Virus record (IMG/VR): IMGVR_UViG_3300009488_000012
Coordinates: 1-39,240 of that record
Origin: a virus
Length of the DNA stretch: 39,240 bases
Direction: 5' to 3' (one strand)
Positions 2,930 through 38,282 of the stretch are shown piece after piece; position 1 is the stretch's first letter; the number at the start of each line of letters is the position of its first letter. The notes below the pieces were generated by a model that was not told the origin of the DNA, searched no databases, and was given only the letters and a program-made list of their open reading frames with translations. The translations under genes and the position numbers were made by a program.

Positions 2930-4213
2930 ATGGCTGTTTCGCGGAGACGCAAAAATATTGCATATGGCATAGGAAATCCGTTACAGTTTTTGTCGCCTCA
3001 ACCAATAATTTCTGCTGCTACCTCACCTAAAACTTCTGATACAGCTGAGCTTGGCACCATTTGGGTTAATAAAACAACTAAGGGTGCTTGGGTTTTGGCG
3101 TCGGTTGCTGCTAATAGTGCAACATGGACACCTATGTCGGTGAATGCTGGTGCAATTATTGCGTCTGGCAATCTTCAAGTGGTTCTTGGAGACATTATTG
3201 TTGATGCTGGTGATATTGACGTAACATTGGGCGACATCGTTGTTGCAGCAGGTGATATAACTGCAACTCTTGGAGCAATAGAGGCTGGCACGACCCTGAC
3301 GACAGGCACGGGACTGGTTGTAACGACCGGCGGGGCTCTCATCTCGGCTGGAGACATCGATGTAACGCTAGGAAACGTCAATGTTGATGCTGGAAATATA
3401 ACTGCGACCCTTGGATCTGTTGAAGCTGGAACGACGCTGACGATAGGCACGGGACTGGTTGTGACCACCGGCGGGGCTCTTATCTCGGCTGGAGATATTG
3501 ATGTAACACTAGGAAACGTCAATGTTGATGCTGGAAATATAACTGCGACCCTTGGCTCACTTGAGGCTGGCACGACAATAACCTCAGGAACTGGGGTCAC
3601 GGTAACGGCTGGAGGAATTCTTGTCTCGGCCGACGACATCGATGTAACGCTGGGAAACGTCAACGTTGATGCTGGGAATATAACTGCGACCCTTGGATCT
3701 ATTGAGGCTGGAACGACGCTGACGACAGGCACGGGACTGGTTGTGACCACCGGCGGGGCTCTTATATCAGCTGGAGACATCGATGTAACACTGGGAAATA
3801 TTAATGCTGACGCTGGTAACATAACTGCAACTCTTGGATCTGTTGAAGCTGGTACGACCGTCACGGGGGGCACCGGTGTGTCAGCGACGACGGGCAATGT
3901 CTCTAGTGATGCTGGAGACGTTGTAGCTGAAGTAAATCTGACAGCCACAACTGGAAATATTGTTTGTACAGCAGGAACGATTGATGCGGCCGTTGATGTT
4001 ATTGCTGGCCGATCTTTGCTTCTGGGAGGTGATGACGGCACAGGCACTCTCCTTTTCACAACGCTCACCAATGTAGTCGATACAACGCTAAGTACTGGTG
4101 CTGGAAAAGTACTGATGAAAACCGGTAACCCTGGTGACAGTTCAGGATGGATGAAGATATACGTAGGTACTGATGTGAGATACATTCCTTTCTGGACAAC
4201 TTTGTCTCCATAA
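2930..4213 (+). CDS. Repetitive tail fibre protein
   Basis: The product is 427 residues. Residues 1-72 form an N-terminal module ending in the motif GTIWVNKTTKGAWVL...ATWTP, which recurs in phage fibre proteins and also in the genes at 10212 and 20026. Residues from about 75 to 355 are a regular array of Gly/Thr/Asp/Val-rich repeats (DIDVTLGNVNVDAGNITATL), in phase with a 141-base DNA repeat. Such alternating beta sequences suggest an elongated beta-structured shaft. The C-terminus (LSTGAGKVLMKTGNPGDSS...VRYIPFW) is non-repetitive and may be the tip or trimerisation end. AAGGAG precedes the ATG. It opens the fibre block. Receptor specificity cannot be told. Confidence 0.85.
   Translation: MAVSRRRKNIAYGIGNPLQFLSPQPIISAATSPKTSDTAELGTIWVNKTTKGAWVLASVAANSATWTPMSVNAGAIIASGNLQVVLGDIIVDAGDIDVTLGDIVVAAGDITATLGAIEAGTTLTTGTGLVVTTGGALISAGDIDVTLGNVNVDAGNITATLGSVEAGTTLTIGTGLVVTTGGALISAGDIDVTLGNVNVDAGNITATLGSLEAGTTITSGTGVTVTAGGILVSADDIDVTLGNVNVDAGNITATLGSIEAGTTLTTGTGLVVTTGGALISAGDIDVTLGNINADAGNITATLGSVEAGTTVTGGTGVSATTGNVSSDAGDVVAEVNLTATTGNIVCTAGTIDAAVDVIAGRSLLLGGDDGTGTLLFTTLTNVVDTTLSTGAGKVLMKTGNPGDSSGWMKIYVGTDVRYIPFWTTLSP
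3287..3991 (+). repeat. Five tandem 141-bp coding repeats
   Basis: Five units of 141 bp (47 codons) begin at 3287, 3428, 3569, 3710 and 3851. The landmark CACGGGACTGG or its diverged form recurs at 3307, 3448, 3589, 3730 and 3871. The third and fifth units are most diverged. A partial, older unit precedes the array from about 3166. The period is a multiple of three, so unit gain or loss would keep the reading frame. Confidence 0.9.
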
Positions 4214-4228
4214 TTTCATGTAGAACGA

Positions 4229-4259
4229 GGCCCTCCTGTTTGTCCTTGCGTGGAGGGCC
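4229..4259. other. Intergenic hairpin without a T tract
   Basis: GGCCCTCC and GGAGGGCC form an 8-bp perfect stem just after the first fibre gene. No T run follows on either strand, so it is more likely an RNA processing or stability element than an intrinsic terminator. A similar GC-rich hairpin follows the next gene (about 4611-4631). Confidence 0.55.
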
Positions 4260-4317
4260 CTGTAAAGATACGCTTGCTCCAGTAGTAATATATGTTCCAA
4301 ATTAAAAGGATTGATGG

Positions 4318-4596
4318 ATGACAAATAACATGACACCTCCCAAAACAGTTCAAAAAATCGCTACTACATTTGAGAGTAAAAAAGGCGACAAGACATATAT
4401 TTTTACTATGCCTTATGGTGCTCCACTTGGAGAGGCATATGATGCAGTACACGATATTCTTTTAGACCTTGTTGCAATGTCTCATAGATATGCTGAGCAG
4501 GTAAAACAAGCAAAGAAAGAAGAAGTAGAAAAAGAGGAAGCAAAGAAAAAGGAAGCTCAACCTGAGGTAGTAAAAGCTGCTCCGGAAAAGGAGTAA
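4318..4596 (+). CDS. Conserved-looking small protein with charged tail
   Basis: The product is 92 residues. The first half contains TYIFTMPYGAPLGEAYDAVHD, a short beta-plus-helix segment of a type I remember from small proteins beside phage fibre genes. The second half is a Lys/Glu/Ala-rich helix, likely a coiled coil. AAAGG lies upstream. An earlier ATG at 4314 opens only a four-codon frame (MDDK), so 4318 is the better start. A role in fibre assembly or attachment would fit the position but is not shown. Confidence 0.7.
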   Translation: MTNNMTPPKTVQKIATTFESKKGDKTYIFTMPYGAPLGEAYDAVHDILLDLVAMSHRYAEQVKQAKKEEVEKEEAKKKEAQPEVVKAAPEKE

Positions 4597-4647
4597 GATT
4601 CGAAGTAAAAAGGGGTCCTCTTTTGAGGGCCTCGATTTGGAGATGGT

Positions 4648-4989
4648 ATGGCAATTTCACAATACTTACATGAAACCTTACGCACTTTAGCGTTTGGATC
4701 AATTACCACATCTTTTGTTGCGGTCGGCTCTGCAATGGAGCATTCAATTTTGAAGTACAAACTTATCAATGGAACAGATGAGGCGTTAACGATATCGTTT
4801 GATGGCATTAACGACCACGAGCGAATTTTGTCAAATACGGCATATGTTGAAGATGTGGCACTTGAGTCTATTTCAACCGTCGAGCTTCCTAAGGGAACAA
4901 CAATATATGTAAAGCATGATGCTGGATCTGGTCCGACTGTTGGAAATGTATATGTGTCAGTCACATATAGTAGTAATTATTCTGCGTAA
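4648..4989 (+). CDS. Small beta-rich virion-type protein
   Basis: The product is 113 residues with mainly beta-strand character: alternating hydrophobic and polar residues, a GTDEALTISFDG segment and a Tyr/Ser/Thr-rich end. It has no signal peptide or membrane helix. GGAG lies upstream of the ATG, in the loop side of an intergenic hairpin. It lies inside the fibre block and is probably a minor tail or fibre-associated protein. I do not recognise the family. Confidence 0.7.
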   Translation: MAISQYLHETLRTLAFGSITTSFVAVGSAMEHSILKYKLINGTDEALTISFDGINDHERILSNTAYVEDVALESISTVELPKGTTIYVKHDAGSGPTVGNVYVSVTYSSNYSA

Positions 4990-5011
4990 GTGACCGAAGA
5001 TAGGGGAGTAG

Positions 5012-18894: not shown

Positions 18895-19098
18895 ATGAAA
18901 AACCCCAAAACCCCTAAACCTACAATAGCCGCCACCGCAACCATTTATTTAAAAAACGAAGCCGACCTTGTTTCATTTTTAGAGTGCCTGGACGATGGAA
19001 ACGGTAGGCTGAGATGGCATGTAGCACTTAATGTCGATCCTAAGAAAATCAACGAGGATTCCGTTTATGAAAAATTCCAAACCAAGAACAACGCCTAA
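18895..19098 (+). CDS. Hypothetical small protein
   Basis: The product is 67 residues. ATG at 18895 has GAGGA five bases upstream; a TTG at 18883 is possible but less likely. The sequence has a Pro/Lys/Thr-rich N-terminus then a beta-helix segment (ATIYLKNEADLVSFLECLDD) and RLRWHVALNVD. Its 3' end overlaps the next gene by 32 bases in another frame. Not recognised. Confidence 0.6.
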   Translation: MKNPKTPKPTIAATATIYLKNEADLVSFLECLDDGNGRLRWHVALNVDPKKINEDSVYEKFQTKNNA

Positions 19099-19648
19099 AA
19101 TCCCTAAACCTAACACGGACCCCAATACTGAGCGTGCTTTTGTCCTACAAGACTACCTGGACGCATCCAATGCTCGTAAAAGCAAAGAAATGAAACAAAA
19201 GATCGAGTTCTTTGCCGAGAAACTACTCGACTGGGCTCTCCATGATGATACCGCTCTCATGCTCAGAGAATTCTTTGTAGTCAACGGTATATCACCAGGA
19301 TCTGTACTACGATGGAGCAAGCGTAGCAAGCTCTTCAAAGCCGCATATGAAATGGCCAAGACAGCTATCGGTATACGACGCGAAAAAGGCGTTATGTTTC
19401 GTAAGTTTCCTGAAACCTCTACCATTAGATCTCTCCCACTTTATAGCGTATCCTGGACCGAAGGCGAAGACTGGAAGCTTTTGGAGGAGTGGCGCGCGTC
19501 ATTGAAGAATATCGAAGAAGAGAAAAAACCAACCGTCTTTAACATCACCGTTCCATCATTTTCAACACCAAAACCAAAGAAGAAAAGAAAACAACCAAAA
19601 AAGAAAGCTAAACCAAAACAACGCAAGAAGGAGAAGAAAGATGACTAA
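19067..19648 (+). CDS. Probable terminase small subunit
   Basis: The product is 193 residues from ATG 19067 with GAGG upstream. Residues about 45-90 (LREFFVVNGISPGSVLRWSK then SKLFKAAYEMAKTAIGIRRE) form a helix-turn-helix of the kind that lets phage small terminases bind the packaging site. A conserved-looking segment follows (FPETSTIRSLPLYSVSWTEG then EDWKLLEEWRASL). The C-terminus is a Pro/Lys-rich tail that ends EKKDD. I remember similar layouts in small terminase subunits of other podoviruses. It lies 5.2 kb before the large subunit, which is unusual. It closes the C-rich block and its stop opens the first 8-base overlap cassette. Confidence 0.7.
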   Translation: MKNSKPRTTPKIPKPNTDPNTERAFVLQDYLDASNARKSKEMKQKIEFFAEKLLDWALHDDTALMLREFFVVNGISPGSVLRWSKRSKLFKAAYEMAKTAIGIRREKGVMFRKFPETSTIRSLPLYSVSWTEGEDWKLLEEWRASLKNIEEEKKPTVFNITVPSFSTPKPKKKRKQPKKKAKPKQRKKEKKDD

Positions 19649-22532: not shown

Positions 22533-22773
22533 AGATAAGGGTTATAAGGTAAGGTACCTTAAGTATGGTCATATAGAAGTTGAAGGTGTAAGGATTTACC
22601 CTCCGAAAAATCATTTGCCTGTTTGGGGAACTTGTATGGACGAAGATGGAAACGTGTTTACTTCTCTAACTTTTACGTATCAGGAACCATACACCACAAA
22701 GTTCAGGTATACGGATCCGGATGGCAAAGTTCACGAGACGGTTGAGAAGGAGAAGAAAGATGAAAACCTTTAA
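22525..22773 (+). CDS. Hypothetical small beta protein
   Basis: The product is 82 residues from ATG 22525, with GGAGGA four bases upstream. A start at 22495 would add ten residues and is the main alternative. The sequence YKVRYLKYGHIEVEGVRIYP then TSLTFTYQEPYTTKFRYTDP is beta-rich. It ends VEKEKKDENL, so the cassette is present with a 14-base overlap. Not recognised. Confidence 0.65.
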   Translation: MNKDKGYKVRYLKYGHIEVEGVRIYPPKNHLPVWGTCMDEDGNVFTSLTFTYQEPYTTKFRYTDPDGKVHETVEKEKKDENL

Positions 22774-23263
22774 TTGCACACATGGCGAAAACGGCGATTC
22801 TCCCACTGAGCTCGCAAGATGTGATATAGACGATATTACGAGGTATCTTCTAAACAAGAGACCAAAAAAGGAAGTAGTATATGGGGTAAATCCAATAGAA
22901 GAGCGCCTTTTTGGATTGTGTCCACCAGAACTAGAAGAAGATATAAAACACTTTATCACCTTTGTGCTTCCTGAGGAGTACTATTCTATCGATGAAGTGC
23001 TAAGAGAGAATGAAATTGGGCGCATTGACTCAATAACATTTTTTCTTATGCCTTCTTCAAACAAAAAAGATTCTATGTTGGGAGCAAGCGCGTACTGCAT
23101 ACCAATTGTTTGCATGCTGCCAGACACAAAGAACTATAAAAAGTTCATCCGGCCAGACACAAAGGAGTATAAAAAGTTCATCAAGGACTTGAAGGTTGAT
23201 AAATCTATGAACGCAGTCCATTTGTATGCTACTCGGTTCCAGAAGGGGAAGAAAGATGATTGA
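22760..23263 (+). CDS. Hypothetical protein with a duplicated 11-residue segment
   Basis: The product is 167 residues from ATG 22760, placed by the cassette ribosome site; an ATG at 22721 lies inside the gene before. It begins MKTFNCTHGENGDSPTELAR. Near the end PDTKNYKKFIR is followed directly by PDTKEYKKFIK, from a 33-base tandem duplication. It ends QKGKKDD in an 8-base overlap. No family recognised. Confidence 0.65.
   Translation: MKTFNCTHGENGDSPTELARCDIDDITRYLLNKRPKKEVVYGVNPIEERLFGLCPPELEEDIKHFITFVLPEEYYSIDEVLRENEIGRIDSITFFLMPSSNKKDSMLGASAYCIPIVCMLPDTKNYKKFIRPDTKEYKKFIKDLKVDKSMNAVHLYATRFQKGKKDD
23120..23185 (+). repeat. Tandem 33-bp duplication inside a gene
   Basis: Two 33-base units beginning CCAGACACAAAG at 23120 and 23153 differ at a few positions. 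The length is a multiple of three and keeps the frame open. Confidence 0.85.
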
Positions 23264-30174: not shown

Positions 30175-30897
30175 ATGGAAGAACAAGTAGAGAAAGATAA
30201 TGCAGCATTGGAAGCGACGTTAGCTACGGCTGAAACGGAGCCCGTACAACAAGAAGTTCCTGTTCAACAAAAAGATGAAAGAGAGCAACCTCTTCGCTTT
30301 CAGACTCTTCGTGAAGCACGAGAGAGAGCGGAACGGGAAAGGGACCTCTATAAGCGACAACTTGAAATTGCTCAATCGAACCAAAGGCCACAAGCGCCCC
30401 CTAAACAACCAGAAACATATTCTATAGCCCCAGATGATCTTGTTGAAGGCAGGCATTTAGCTAAATATGATCAAGAAATTAAGAAGTTGAGACAAGAACT
30501 TGTTAATTATCAGGCGATGTCAGTTGAGACGAGACTTAAGTCGCAGTACAGGGATTTTTCGTCGGTAGTAAATGAAGAAAACATAGCAATGTTACGTACC
30601 GCAGAACCGGAACTCGCAGAAGCGATTAAATCATCTCCTGATCTTTATAATAAGGCAGTAGCTGCATATACGATGATTAAAAAGCTTGGAATTGTTCCAG
30701 ATGCTACCCAAAACAGTCAACAAACTCTGGCTCAAGAGAATGCTGCAAAGCCTCGTCCTGTTGTGAGTGCAAATTCGCAGCCCGGTAATACTTCTCCTTT
30801 AAGTAATGTAAATTTGCTTACACAGCGCGGTTTCTCGAAAGCACAACAACAAGAGAAATATAGAGAAATGATGGAGGCAAAAAGAAACAGAAGATAG
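30175..30897 (+). CDS. Probable capsid scaffolding protein
   Basis: The product is 240 residues, rich in Glu, Gln and Ala. Residues 35-65 (REARERAERERDLYKRQLEI) and 85-115 are coiled coil, the middle is Gln/Pro-rich, and the C-terminus is a basic helix (QQEKYREMMEAKRNRR), the usual capsid-contact end of scaffolds. It lies directly before the capsid gene, as scaffolds do. Assignment is by composition and position, not sequence family. Confidence 0.8.
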   Translation: MEEQVEKDNAALEATLATAETEPVQQEVPVQQKDEREQPLRFQTLREARERAERERDLYKRQLEIAQSNQRPQAPPKQPETYSIAPDDLVEGRHLAKYDQEIKKLRQELVNYQAMSVETRLKSQYRDFSSVVNEENIAMLRTAEPELAEAIKSSPDLYNKAVAAYTMIKKLGIVPDATQNSQQTLAQENAAKPRPVVSANSQPGNTSPLSNVNLLTQRGFSKAQQQEKYREMMEAKRNRR

Positions 30898-30900
30898 TTT

Positions 30901-30930
30901 TTGCTTCTATTTTTAGAATTATATTATAGT
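30901..30930 (+). promoter_or_regulatory. Candidate capsid promoter
   Basis: TTGCTT (30901-30906), an 18-base spacer and TATAGT (30925-30930). The -10 matches five of six, the -35 three of six. The predicted start, near 30937, falls exactly where the hairpin array begins. Confidence 0.4.
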
Positions 30931-30937
30931 GAATATG

Positions 30938-31065
30938 CGTACATCGAGTTTCGCAAACTCAGCGTAAATCGGGTCTCGCAAGCCCAGCGTATTTTTTAGC
31001 CTCGCAAGCTGTCGGCGTATAATGAGAGTCGCCTTCTCAGCGTATATCGGGTCTCGCAAGCCTAT
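30938..31065 (+). repeat. Five tandem 25-bp hairpin repeats in the capsid leader
   Basis: Five units start with CGTA at 30938, 30963, 30988, 31016 and 31041; four are 25 bases and the third 28. Each has the core TCGCAAGC or a variant inside an inverted repeat. The first is perfect: GAGTTT-CGC-AAACTC. The others keep partly paired arms (GGGTCT-CGC-AAGCCC, AGCCT-CGC-AAGCT, GAGAG-TCGCC-TTCTC). There are no spacers. The period is not a multiple of three, so it is not a coding repeat. TTTTTT follows the second unit (30992-30997). This explains the 219-base gap before the capsid gene. Confidence 0.85.
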
Positions 31066-31110
31066 GAACAATTCTTGTTCATCTTAAGTAGTCATTTTTT
31101 CACTTAAGGA
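31064..31110 (+). promoter_or_regulatory. Two further leader hairpins, the second covering the capsid ribosome site
   Basis: ATGAACAA-TTC-TTGTTCAT (31064-31082) is a perfect stem. CTTAAGT (31083-31089) pairs with ACTTAAG (31102-31108), whose last bases form part of TAAGGA, the ribosome site of the capsid gene. The second stem would partly hide the site and could tune capsid translation. Confidence 0.6.
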
Positions 31111-31116
31111 TATATG

Positions 31117-32058
31117 ATGCCTATTACTACAACATCAACTTTATCGGCTCAGGTGCAACAACACTTTAATGAAGCGTTGTTGTCTACTCCTCAGCCGACC
31201 TATATTCATAAGAGACCGGCAGAGCTGTTTATGCTTCCTCAGGGAGCAAAGACGCTTCTCTTTACTCGATATAATCGACTTCCAACTGCCACAGCTCCTC
31301 TAGGGAATACCGGTGTTACGCCTCCAGCAACACTAATGGATGCGGTAAACATCAGTGCAGATATTAATTATTATGGCCAATACATTGAGACTAACGAGCA
31401 AGTAACTCTACAAAGATCTGATCCTGTATTAAATGCAGAAGCAGAACGTCTTGGTGACGCACTTCGTGCAACAGAGGATGAGCTCACTCGAGATATGATG
31501 GCTTCTACAGCAGCATCAGTTAACTGCGTCGGTGGAACGAATGGCGATAATCCAACTGAAATAACTGCATCAGACATTGATGAAATTGTTCAAGCGCTTA
31601 TTGGTGCAGATGGACGGACTTTTCTTGAGAAGATCCCCGGCGAAAATCGGTTCGGAACAGGTCCGATTCCCAATGCATATTTTGCATTAGCGCACACAGA
31701 CCTTACATCTAACCTGCGCACTGTTACAGGATTTATTCATTCTTCGCAATATCCAAACCCTAATGGTCCAGTTGATGCTGAGTGGGGTTCTGTAGCCAAC
31801 CTTAGATTCCTTGTATCTTCAGTTGGTTCCAAAACACTAACATCCTCAAATCTTGGGGCAGATGTACTTAATGTCTTTTGTTGTGCCCAACAGGCTATTG
31901 GTTGCATAGATCAGGATGGATATACAGCTGAATTTATGTATAACGGGCCAGAACTCAATGGTCCATTGCGTTTAAATAGCACACTAGGTTGGAAGATGGC
32001 GGAAGTTCCGCGGATCTTGAATGATTCATGGCTTATTAATCTAAAATGCACACTATAA
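31117..32058 (+). CDS. Major capsid protein (N4-gp56 family)
   Basis: The product is 313 residues from ATG 31117, six bases after TAAGGA; the ATG three bases earlier is too close to that site. The region DAVNISADINYYGQYIETNE then QVTLQRSDPVLNAEAERLGD then ALRATEDELTRDMMAS is the family signature for HK97-fold capsid proteins related to gp56 of phage N4. The C-terminus LNGPLRLNSTLGWKMAEVPR then ILNDSWLINLKC also fits. Hundreds of copies form the shell. Its long structured leader and the terminator after the next gene suggest separately controlled high expression. Confidence 0.93.
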   Translation: MPITTTSTLSAQVQQHFNEALLSTPQPTYIHKRPAELFMLPQGAKTLLFTRYNRLPTATAPLGNTGVTPPATLMDAVNISADINYYGQYIETNEQVTLQRSDPVLNAEAERLGDALRATEDELTRDMMASTAASVNCVGGTNGDNPTEITASDIDEIVQALIGADGRTFLEKIPGENRFGTGPIPNAYFALAHTDLTSNLRTVTGFIHSSQYPNPNGPVDAEWGSVANLRFLVSSVGSKTLTSSNLGADVLNVFCCAQQAIGCIDQDGYTAEFMYNGPELNGPLRLNSTLGWKMAEVPRILNDSWLINLKCTL

Positions 32059-37754: not shown

Positions 37755-38282
37755 TTATTGTTTGATGTATTCCAGGATCACATCGCAGTCATTATAGGCT
37801 GAATAGTCTGTTCCGCCTGTCGTTATTATCACTTGTGTCGCTGTAGCACGTACGCTCAAGGCAGATGAAGTGGTTATTGTTATGCCTGCAAACGTAGTCG
37901 TATTTGTAGCTGTTGCATATACTCTTTTCCATCTTGTATTTGTATCTGTTGTAATGTTGTGGTTTACAGGTTTAGATCCAGCAGCTGGCAATGCACCAAA
38001 AGGAATAACTTTTCGAAATACCGGTCGATGTTCAGGGGCCTGTGCGGTGGTTGAGCTGAGAGTTGTGTTTTCGTACCAAAGTTGGCCGTTTAAAATTTCT
38101 GTTCTGACGTAGTATCCAACGTCTCTAATATTAACTGCTTCAGAGATATTGTTTGTTGTTTGATAGAGCTTTACTAGAAAGTCTTTAAAGTCTGGGCTTT
38201 TGATGTCGATTGCATCGACAAGAGAGCGATCAAACGTATCAGTAGTGGGAAGATTAAATCCATATTCTGTATCTGTAGCCAT
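37755..38282 (-). CDS. Structural-type protein encoded against the block
   Basis: The product is 175 residues and its stop abuts the hub gene's stop with no gap. AAGGGG precedes the ATG on the minus strand. The N-terminus (EYGFNLPTTDTFDRSLVDAI) and the beta-rich remainder (WKRVYATATNTTTFAGITIT) look like a phage virion or fibre component. It must use its own leftward promoter in the 38.28-38.39 kb gap, or be transcribed late by a separate signal. Orientation opposite to all other virion genes is odd. Confidence 0.78.
   Translation of the reverse strand: MATDTEYGFNLPTTDTFDRSLVDAIDIKSPDFKDFLVKLYQTTNNISEAVNIRDVGYYVRTEILNGQLWYENTTLSSTTAQAPEHRPVFRKVIPFGALPAAGSKPVNHNITTDTNTRWKRVYATATNTTTFAGITITTSSALSVRATATQVIITTGGTDYSAYNDCDVILEYIKQ

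Follow-up and report, generated by a model that had tools for sequence, protein, structure and literature searches.

The DNA analyzed here is the 39,240-base IMG/VR virus record IMGVR_UViG_3300009488_000012, taken whole (hereafter the window), and the element under study is an array of five short units in the leader of its major capsid gene. The gap between this gene and a 240-codon gene of unknown family, a scaffold candidate that spans 30175-30897, is 216 bases long and contains, in order, the motif pair TTGCTT-N18-TATAGT, the five units, a hairpin of 8 base pairs (bp), and a hairpin over the ribosome site (Table 1). The array occupies 30936-31063; its abutting units start at 30937, 30962, 30987, 31015, and 31040, with a pitch of 25, 25, 28, and 25. 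An earlier, sequence-only reading of this locus had described five units of about 25 bp, stacked without spacers between a candidate promoter and the capsid gene, and we confirmed both this layout and, by a profile match (Table 1), the capsid identity of the gene. When the whole record was scanned with a 22-nucleotide (nt) unit consensus at no more than three mismatches, the matches were confined to the array, with none expected from shuffles. Similarly, TCTCGCAAGC has no second occurrence in the record. No similarity of the window to phage genomes was found at the DNA level.

Based on comparison with relatives, the units are best interpreted as small H-type pseudoknots rather than simple hairpins. 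The sequence-only reading had taken the units for mini-hairpins, each an imperfect palindrome around TCGCAA. TCGC is present in all five units of the window; in contrast, TCGCAA is found in only four (unit 4 has TCGCCT), and the palindrome (GAG TTTCGCAAA CTC and its counterparts) represents only half of the predicted structure. The other half is formed by the GCG that opens the unit, which pairs with the CGC of the apparent TCGC loop to give stem 1, and GRG/CYC pairing gives stem 2. Nested RNA folding, which has no means of representing a pseudoknot, therefore gave unremarkable values for the window leader (z = -0.55 and +0.69).

Table 1. Features of the capsid leader region, in window coordinates. 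Unit strings read stem 1, loop 1, stem 2, loop 2, stem 1', loop 3, stem 2'.
Feature	Position	Strand	Details	Basis
Candidate sigma-70 promoter	30901..30930	+	TTGCTT 30901-30906, 18-nt spacer, TATAGT 30925-30930; predicted start ~30937	sequence
Unit 1 pseudoknot	30936..30960	+	TGCG-tacatc-GAGT-tt-CGCA-a-ACTC	descriptor scan; covariation in relatives
Unit 2 pseudoknot	30962..30985	+	GCG-taaatc-GGGT-ct-CGC-aa-GCCC	descriptor scan; covariation in relatives
Unit 3 pseudoknot	30987..31011	+	GCG-tattttt-TAGC-ct-CGC-aa-GCTG; weakest; holds T6 run	descriptor scan
Unit 4 pseudoknot	31014..31039	+	GGCG-tataa-TGAGA-gt-CGCC-t-TCTCA; strongest	descriptor scan
Unit 5 pseudoknot	31040..31063	+	GCG-tatatc-GGG-tct-CGC-aag-CCT	descriptor scan
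8-bp hairpin	31064..31082	+	ATGAACAA-ttc-TTGTTCAT; between array and ribosome-site hairpin	sequence
Ribosome-site hairpin	31083..31108	+	CTTAAGT 31083-31089 / ACTTAAG 31102-31108; pairs AAG of Shine-Dalgarno AAGGA (31106-31110)	
Major capsid protein gene	31114..32058	+	start 31114 or, from relatives, 31117	PHROG 1357, E 6e-25; capsid alignment

The first relative found, L003, has a capsid 73% identical over the matched part, and its leader carries five units at the same position with matched changes such as GGG/CCC for GAG/CTC. We gathered 80 relatives through the portal protein and 80 more through capsid alignment, which yielded 107 unique capsid leaders for comparison. Across these leaders, the order of stems and loops is kept while the letters vary, as in GCG-uauauc-GGG-ccu-CGC-aaa-CCC, GACG-uaa-GGG-auu-CGUC-aa-CCC, GGC-uguac-GGG-aauc-GCC-aa-CCC, GAGC-uguac-GGG-cauc-GCUC-a-CCC, and GGACG-uauaauc-AAGC-acu-CGUCC-a-GCUU. 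Both stems measure about 4 bp, loop 1 has 4-5 nt, loop 2 about 3 nt, and loop 3 about 1 nt; a short loop 3 with a longer loop 2 is an unusual geometry for an H-type pseudoknot. The core nucleotides CG-UA...U-CG are invariant across units, and the stems are variable. Pairing of the loop with the following unit, instead of its own, was ruled out by mixed arrays such as that of L021, in which GCCAA, GCTCA, and GCC each fit their own upstream strand. In addition, two smaller proposals of the sequence-only reading were not upheld. The T6 run suggested as an attenuator lies inside unit 3 (in GCGTATTTTTTAGCC) and is absent in L003, and no G+C-rich hairpin followed by a T run, nor any other terminator-like site, is present in the leader. 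Of the tiny frames listed within the array, the one with ATG at 30935 reads CTG in L003, and these frames have no ribosome sites.

A pseudoknot descriptor identified 302 units in the 107 leaders, compared with 203 in five shuffled sets together (a mean of about 41); the reverse complement gave 29 and the reversed sequence 72. Similarly, when TCG anchors were given the downstream half of another phage, matches at a score of at least 18 fell from 304 to 43-56. As the descriptor itself uses pairing, the test was redone with pairing-free anchors (CGYA ... TCG), which gave 225 units; these anchors dictate the two innermost pairs of stem 1, which are therefore uninformative. Stem-1 pair 3 is Watson-Crick in 88% of the units versus 42% after shuffling (GC 105, AT 87, TA 6), and pair 4 in 73% versus 42%; the leader sequences are related, so the counts in these tests, including those for stem 2 and the alignments below, are not independent events. 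A 3-bp stem 2 was found in 188 of the 225 units (swapped mean 78, maximum 93) and a 5-bp stem 2 in 59 (swapped mean 9.6), where the swap controls hold constant the fact that the units were picked after inspection of the leaders. Moreover, MAFFT alignments of 58 and 41 units have 79% and 82% of their cells paired, whereas slid partners give 30-47%, and their covariation of 0.37 and 0.46 (0.17 and 0.20 after shuffling) was reached by none of 500 shuffles. The covariation proposed by the sequence-only reading as a check on related leaders is thus strong for both stems on sequence-anchored alignments. Collectively, comparison of the leaders shows an array of tandem units, each with two interleaved stems, that is specific to capsid leaders.

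A chain of at least two units was detected in 98 of the 107 leaders: three units in 61, two in 25, four in 10, five in one, and six in one. These are undercounts, and the window itself gives five units by the descriptor. For L104, the true leader lies further upstream and carries two units. The leaders of L153, L155, and L176, read by eye only, contain apparent variant units with GACC/GGTC stems in place of the CG core. Within 1.53 Mb of fetched loci, which are partly redundant, 125 clusters of at least two units fall in capsid leaders (121 plus four in leaders missed by the start-finder); the other matches are spread out, for the most part over unrelated GC-rich contigs, and appear chance-like. 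Strong clusters are nearly confined to capsid leaders and the capsid coding strand, and each of ten near-whole array-bearing genomes (including the window and G167) has one cluster, at the capsid leader. A second capsid clade, found through a contig of a Chlamydiota metagenome-assembled genome (MAG; E 5e-42 to the first profile), also carries arrays; 15 of its 34 loci have a plus-strand cluster, nearly all directly 5' of ATG-TC(A/T/G)-AT(T/C)-AC.

Beyond these two clades, the named phages with about 25% capsid identity (Page, API480, StenR_269, Y3, and MW202713; H17, which has no annotation, was left out) have pre-capsid gaps of 4-90 nt, with no space for a multi-unit array. No relative above 26% capsid identity was found in the phage collection, and the group is large and uncultured. 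Searches of IMG/VR with the exact unit pattern returned only chance matches in unrelated sequence, and a looser pattern returned the contig of L003, other capsid contigs, and unrelated contigs.

The two ends of the array are placed differently with respect to the signals around it. At the 5' end, 58 of the 98 leaders have their best -10-like hexamer 3-8 nt ahead of the first unit; therefore, the mRNA should start at the first pseudoknot. Promoter placement depends on consensus matching, and a general promoter scan of the window region gave sites no more numerous than in shuffles. Nevertheless, the position of the hexamers strongly suggests that transcription begins at the first pseudoknot, which supports the earlier proposal of a structured capsid mRNA leader with a predicted start at the first unit. 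At the 3' end, a median of 44.5 nt separates the end of the last unit from the start codon, and a helix covering the Shine-Dalgarno sequence with a score of at least 16 occurs in 33 of 94 leaders, compared with 7-10 when ends are swapped. In 44 of the 94, with L042 and L056 as examples, the 5' strand of this helix has 2-5 nt in common with stem 2 of the last unit. Moreover, CTT is found in stem 2 of 43 of 98 last units, but in only 6 of 88 middle units and 25 of 98 first units. These observations strongly suggest that the ribosome site is held in a hairpin in many leaders, and so the last pseudoknot and this hairpin would exclude each other in many of these phages.

We then compared the array with known structured RNAs. 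No Rfam 15 family (4227 families) matched the window or nine relatives at the gathering threshold, and with permissive settings the window leader had no more than three matches, each far short of its cut-off and with an E of at least about 0.6. A published description of such a leader was likewise not found in the literature, mainly that which is freely accessible, in agreement with the earlier view that this leader form is undescribed. The coat-protein operator of RNA phages (MS2 type) is a single hairpin at the replicase start of a single-stranded RNA phage; it resembles the array in linking a structured RNA to a capsid gene with possible capsid feedback, but has neither a pseudoknot nor an array. 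Tandem exoribonuclease-resistant RNAs, which are much larger and lie in untranslated regions of eukaryotic RNA viruses, are similar, by description alone, in having serial pseudoknots able to protect RNA. The nearest description is STAXI (RF01728), a tandem arrangement of usually three pseudoknots with frequent UUCG and unknown function, located in Enterobacteriales near ssb, topoisomerase, antirestriction, and integrase/XerDC genes (PMC2864571). Both elements repeat pseudoknots in tandem, two to three in STAXI and two to six here; in contrast, the present array precedes the major capsid gene and differs in taxa and neighbors. None of 20 records scored above the gathering threshold of the STAXI covariance model: the window record and 18 others had no match, and the twentieth had one 16-position match at 6.8 bits (gathering 40.5) outside the fetched capsid leader. 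The nearest working analogue is the gene 32 leader of phages T4, T2, and RB69, which is also a phage mRNA leader with a pseudoknot upstream of the start codon and ribosome site. This pseudoknot lies 67 nt upstream of the start codon and controls downstream translation, and a 2010 review considered T4 gene 32 perhaps the sole viral pseudoknot known in translational autoregulation (PMC3014915). However, the gene 32 leader has a single pseudoknot and serves a single-strand DNA-binding protein that spreads over A+U-rich RNA (PMC3014915), whereas the capsid leaders have two to six units and a ribosome-site hairpin. Collectively, the array consists of leader pseudoknots that belong to neither the STAXI nor the gene 32 family, and it is set apart from STAXI by model, taxa, and neighbors.

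The array is almost certainly a structured cis-acting RNA. With their fixed core and variable stems, the several small units resemble a series of sites bound by one protein, and translation is the natural output given the link to the ribosome site. The chances are about even that the array is a cis-acting capsid leader RNA of tandem H-type pseudoknots that acts as a multivalent operator setting capsid translation; that its output is translation control, rather than mRNA decay or transcription, is similarly balanced. In this mechanism, each pseudoknot would be recognized through its conserved CG-UA...U-CG core by a protein, either the capsid or another phage protein. Once bound or unfolded, the array would act through the last unit and the ribosome-site hairpin to open or close the ribosome site. 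Such a relay is visible in about half of the relatives, where the Shine-Dalgarno region is also predicted to pair with the 3' strand of the last pseudoknot; the window has an extra hairpin between the last unit and the ribosome-site hairpin, so here we only infer the relay. The capsid protein itself is the obvious first candidate for the ligand, although a rather unlikely one. It is conceivable, although we lean against it, that the arrays represent a new class of viral translational operator, in which a virion protein recognizes a pseudoknot array and a strand shared with the ribosome site provides quantitative capsid feedback in tailed DNA phages.

Four observations weigh against the operator. 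First, neither the window nor about half of the relatives show the overlap with the ribosome site; in the window, L003, L019, and L022, an extra hairpin takes its place between the last unit and the ribosome-site hairpin, and in the latter three, the hairpin at the position of the 8-bp hairpin of the window differs in sequence. Second, no convincing candidate for an RNA-binding ligand emerged when array-bearing and array-less genomes were compared. Two genes, at 19031-19648 and 37755-38282 (minus), are found in all array-bearing and no array-less genomes, but neither is convincing because they are packaging- and tail-like, judged by sequence only, and the array-less genomes are also more distant. 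Third, the distance from promoter to first unit looks tighter than that from last unit to start codon, which fits protection of the 5' end at least equally well. Finally, relatives that lack the array although their capsid gene is intact, which the sequence-only reading had named as speaking against the element, were found, namely L098 (a contig of a Simkaniaceae MAG) and L015; nevertheless, about 95% or more of the 107 leaders retain the array. L102, whose capsid gene is in pieces, also lacks it. In all three, the capsid gene lies closely behind the upstream gene with no leader seen, and the array, as judged from these genomes, is not indispensable.

The main rival to the operator is a stabilizer of the mRNA 5' end, which we consider somewhat unlikely. 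The first pseudoknot, at or near +1, would bury the 5' end from pyrophosphohydrolase and 5'-end-dependent RNases, the other copies would be spare road-blocks, and the ribosome-site hairpin would be a separate feature. The -10-like hexamers suit this role since they would place the mRNA start within a base or two of a stem, as do the variable copy number, the restriction of the array to the gene expected to yield the most abundant late mRNA, and the fact that the leaderless capsid genes are the array-less ones. However, a single terminal structure would suffice for protection, whereas the leaders keep several units that share an invariant CG..UA..UCG core; the last of them is specialized by its CTT and overlaps the ribosome-site hairpin in many phages, which speaks against this role.

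The same overlap would be left unexplained by RNA antitermination of the HK022 put or EAR kind, in which the nascent pseudoknots would modify RNA polymerase for read-through of late-operon terminators. Known antitermination RNAs are structured leader RNAs, and the array does lie at the predicted 5' end of the late transcript; put RNAs are hairpins rather than tandem pseudoknots, and this role is improbable. A small-molecule riboswitch, with tandem tiny pseudoknot aptamers giving a steep metabolite response in late infection, would fit the invariant core nucleotides and, in many leaders, the sharing of a strand between the array and the ribosome-site helix, and small pseudoknot aptamers and tandem riboswitches do exist. 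However, the array is restricted to capsid leaders and shows no association with metabolic genes, and a unit of about 25 nt is, to our knowledge, smaller than known pseudoknot aptamers, so that a riboswitch is quite improbable. Small DNA hairpins serve as promoters for the N4 virion RNA polymerase, and an element of this kind, or a replication origin or packaging site as the sequence-only reading had also offered, would act at the DNA level; for their tandem pseudoknots, the STAXI authors considered single-stranded DNA (PMC2864571). Such a role is very improbable here: the clusters, found only before the capsid gene and on its coding strand, lie downstream of the promoter and upstream of the ribosome site, and the sharing of a strand with the ribosome site can be understood only at the RNA level.

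The relatives also suggest that these are tailed DNA phages of chlamydiae. A close capsid relative is present in 8 of 234 Chlamydiota genomes, several on contigs of 35-41 kb, compared with one close match (4.4-kb contig) and two weaker ones in 274 gammaproteobacterial genomes, and three of seven matches in a species-genome scan were Chlamydiota. L098, L101, L103, L197, L199, and L202 are contigs of Chlamydiota MAGs, and environmental Chlamydiota bins hold close relatives; since the Chlamydiota matches are MAG contigs, the host evidence is co-binning only.

In many relatives, the capsid gene is split into 2-5 pieces by intron-like inserts (L003 at ~4227-4990; L030, L035, L104; G024:C95, G025:C388, G147:C19, G167:C2), and those of L003, L104, and L246 matched no Rfam family. 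Away from the capsid gene, the window encodes at 22721-23263 (+) a small protein that begins with an arginine-rich stretch, MAKFTRRLRRRRKMK, and contains a diverged capsid fragment (FNCTHGENGDSPTELARCDIDDI versus VNCVGGTNGDNPTEITASDIDEI in the capsid). Similar proteins are encoded in L219 (7723-8295), L055 (933-1409), L030 (1544-2068), L021 (5549-6175), and L080 (3708-4241). They are possible capsid-derived regulators and show no correlation with the array among the compared genomes. In addition, L046 (13573-13644 and 6070-6141) and L081 (1578-1649) carry tRNA genes, one of those in L046 directly upstream of the capsid leader; the window has none. A 141-base unit repeated 4.3 times is located at 3255-3858 of the window, inside an open reading frame (2930-4213) common to several relatives.

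In tailed phages, capsid dosage is mostly explained by promoters and ribosome sites; here, a conserved RNA element precedes the capsid gene. Ordinary folding and Rfam-type scans miss such elements, so similar ones may be widespread and overlooked. Collectively, the comparison of leaders points to a putative, previously undescribed RNA element that would control the most heavily made phage protein.
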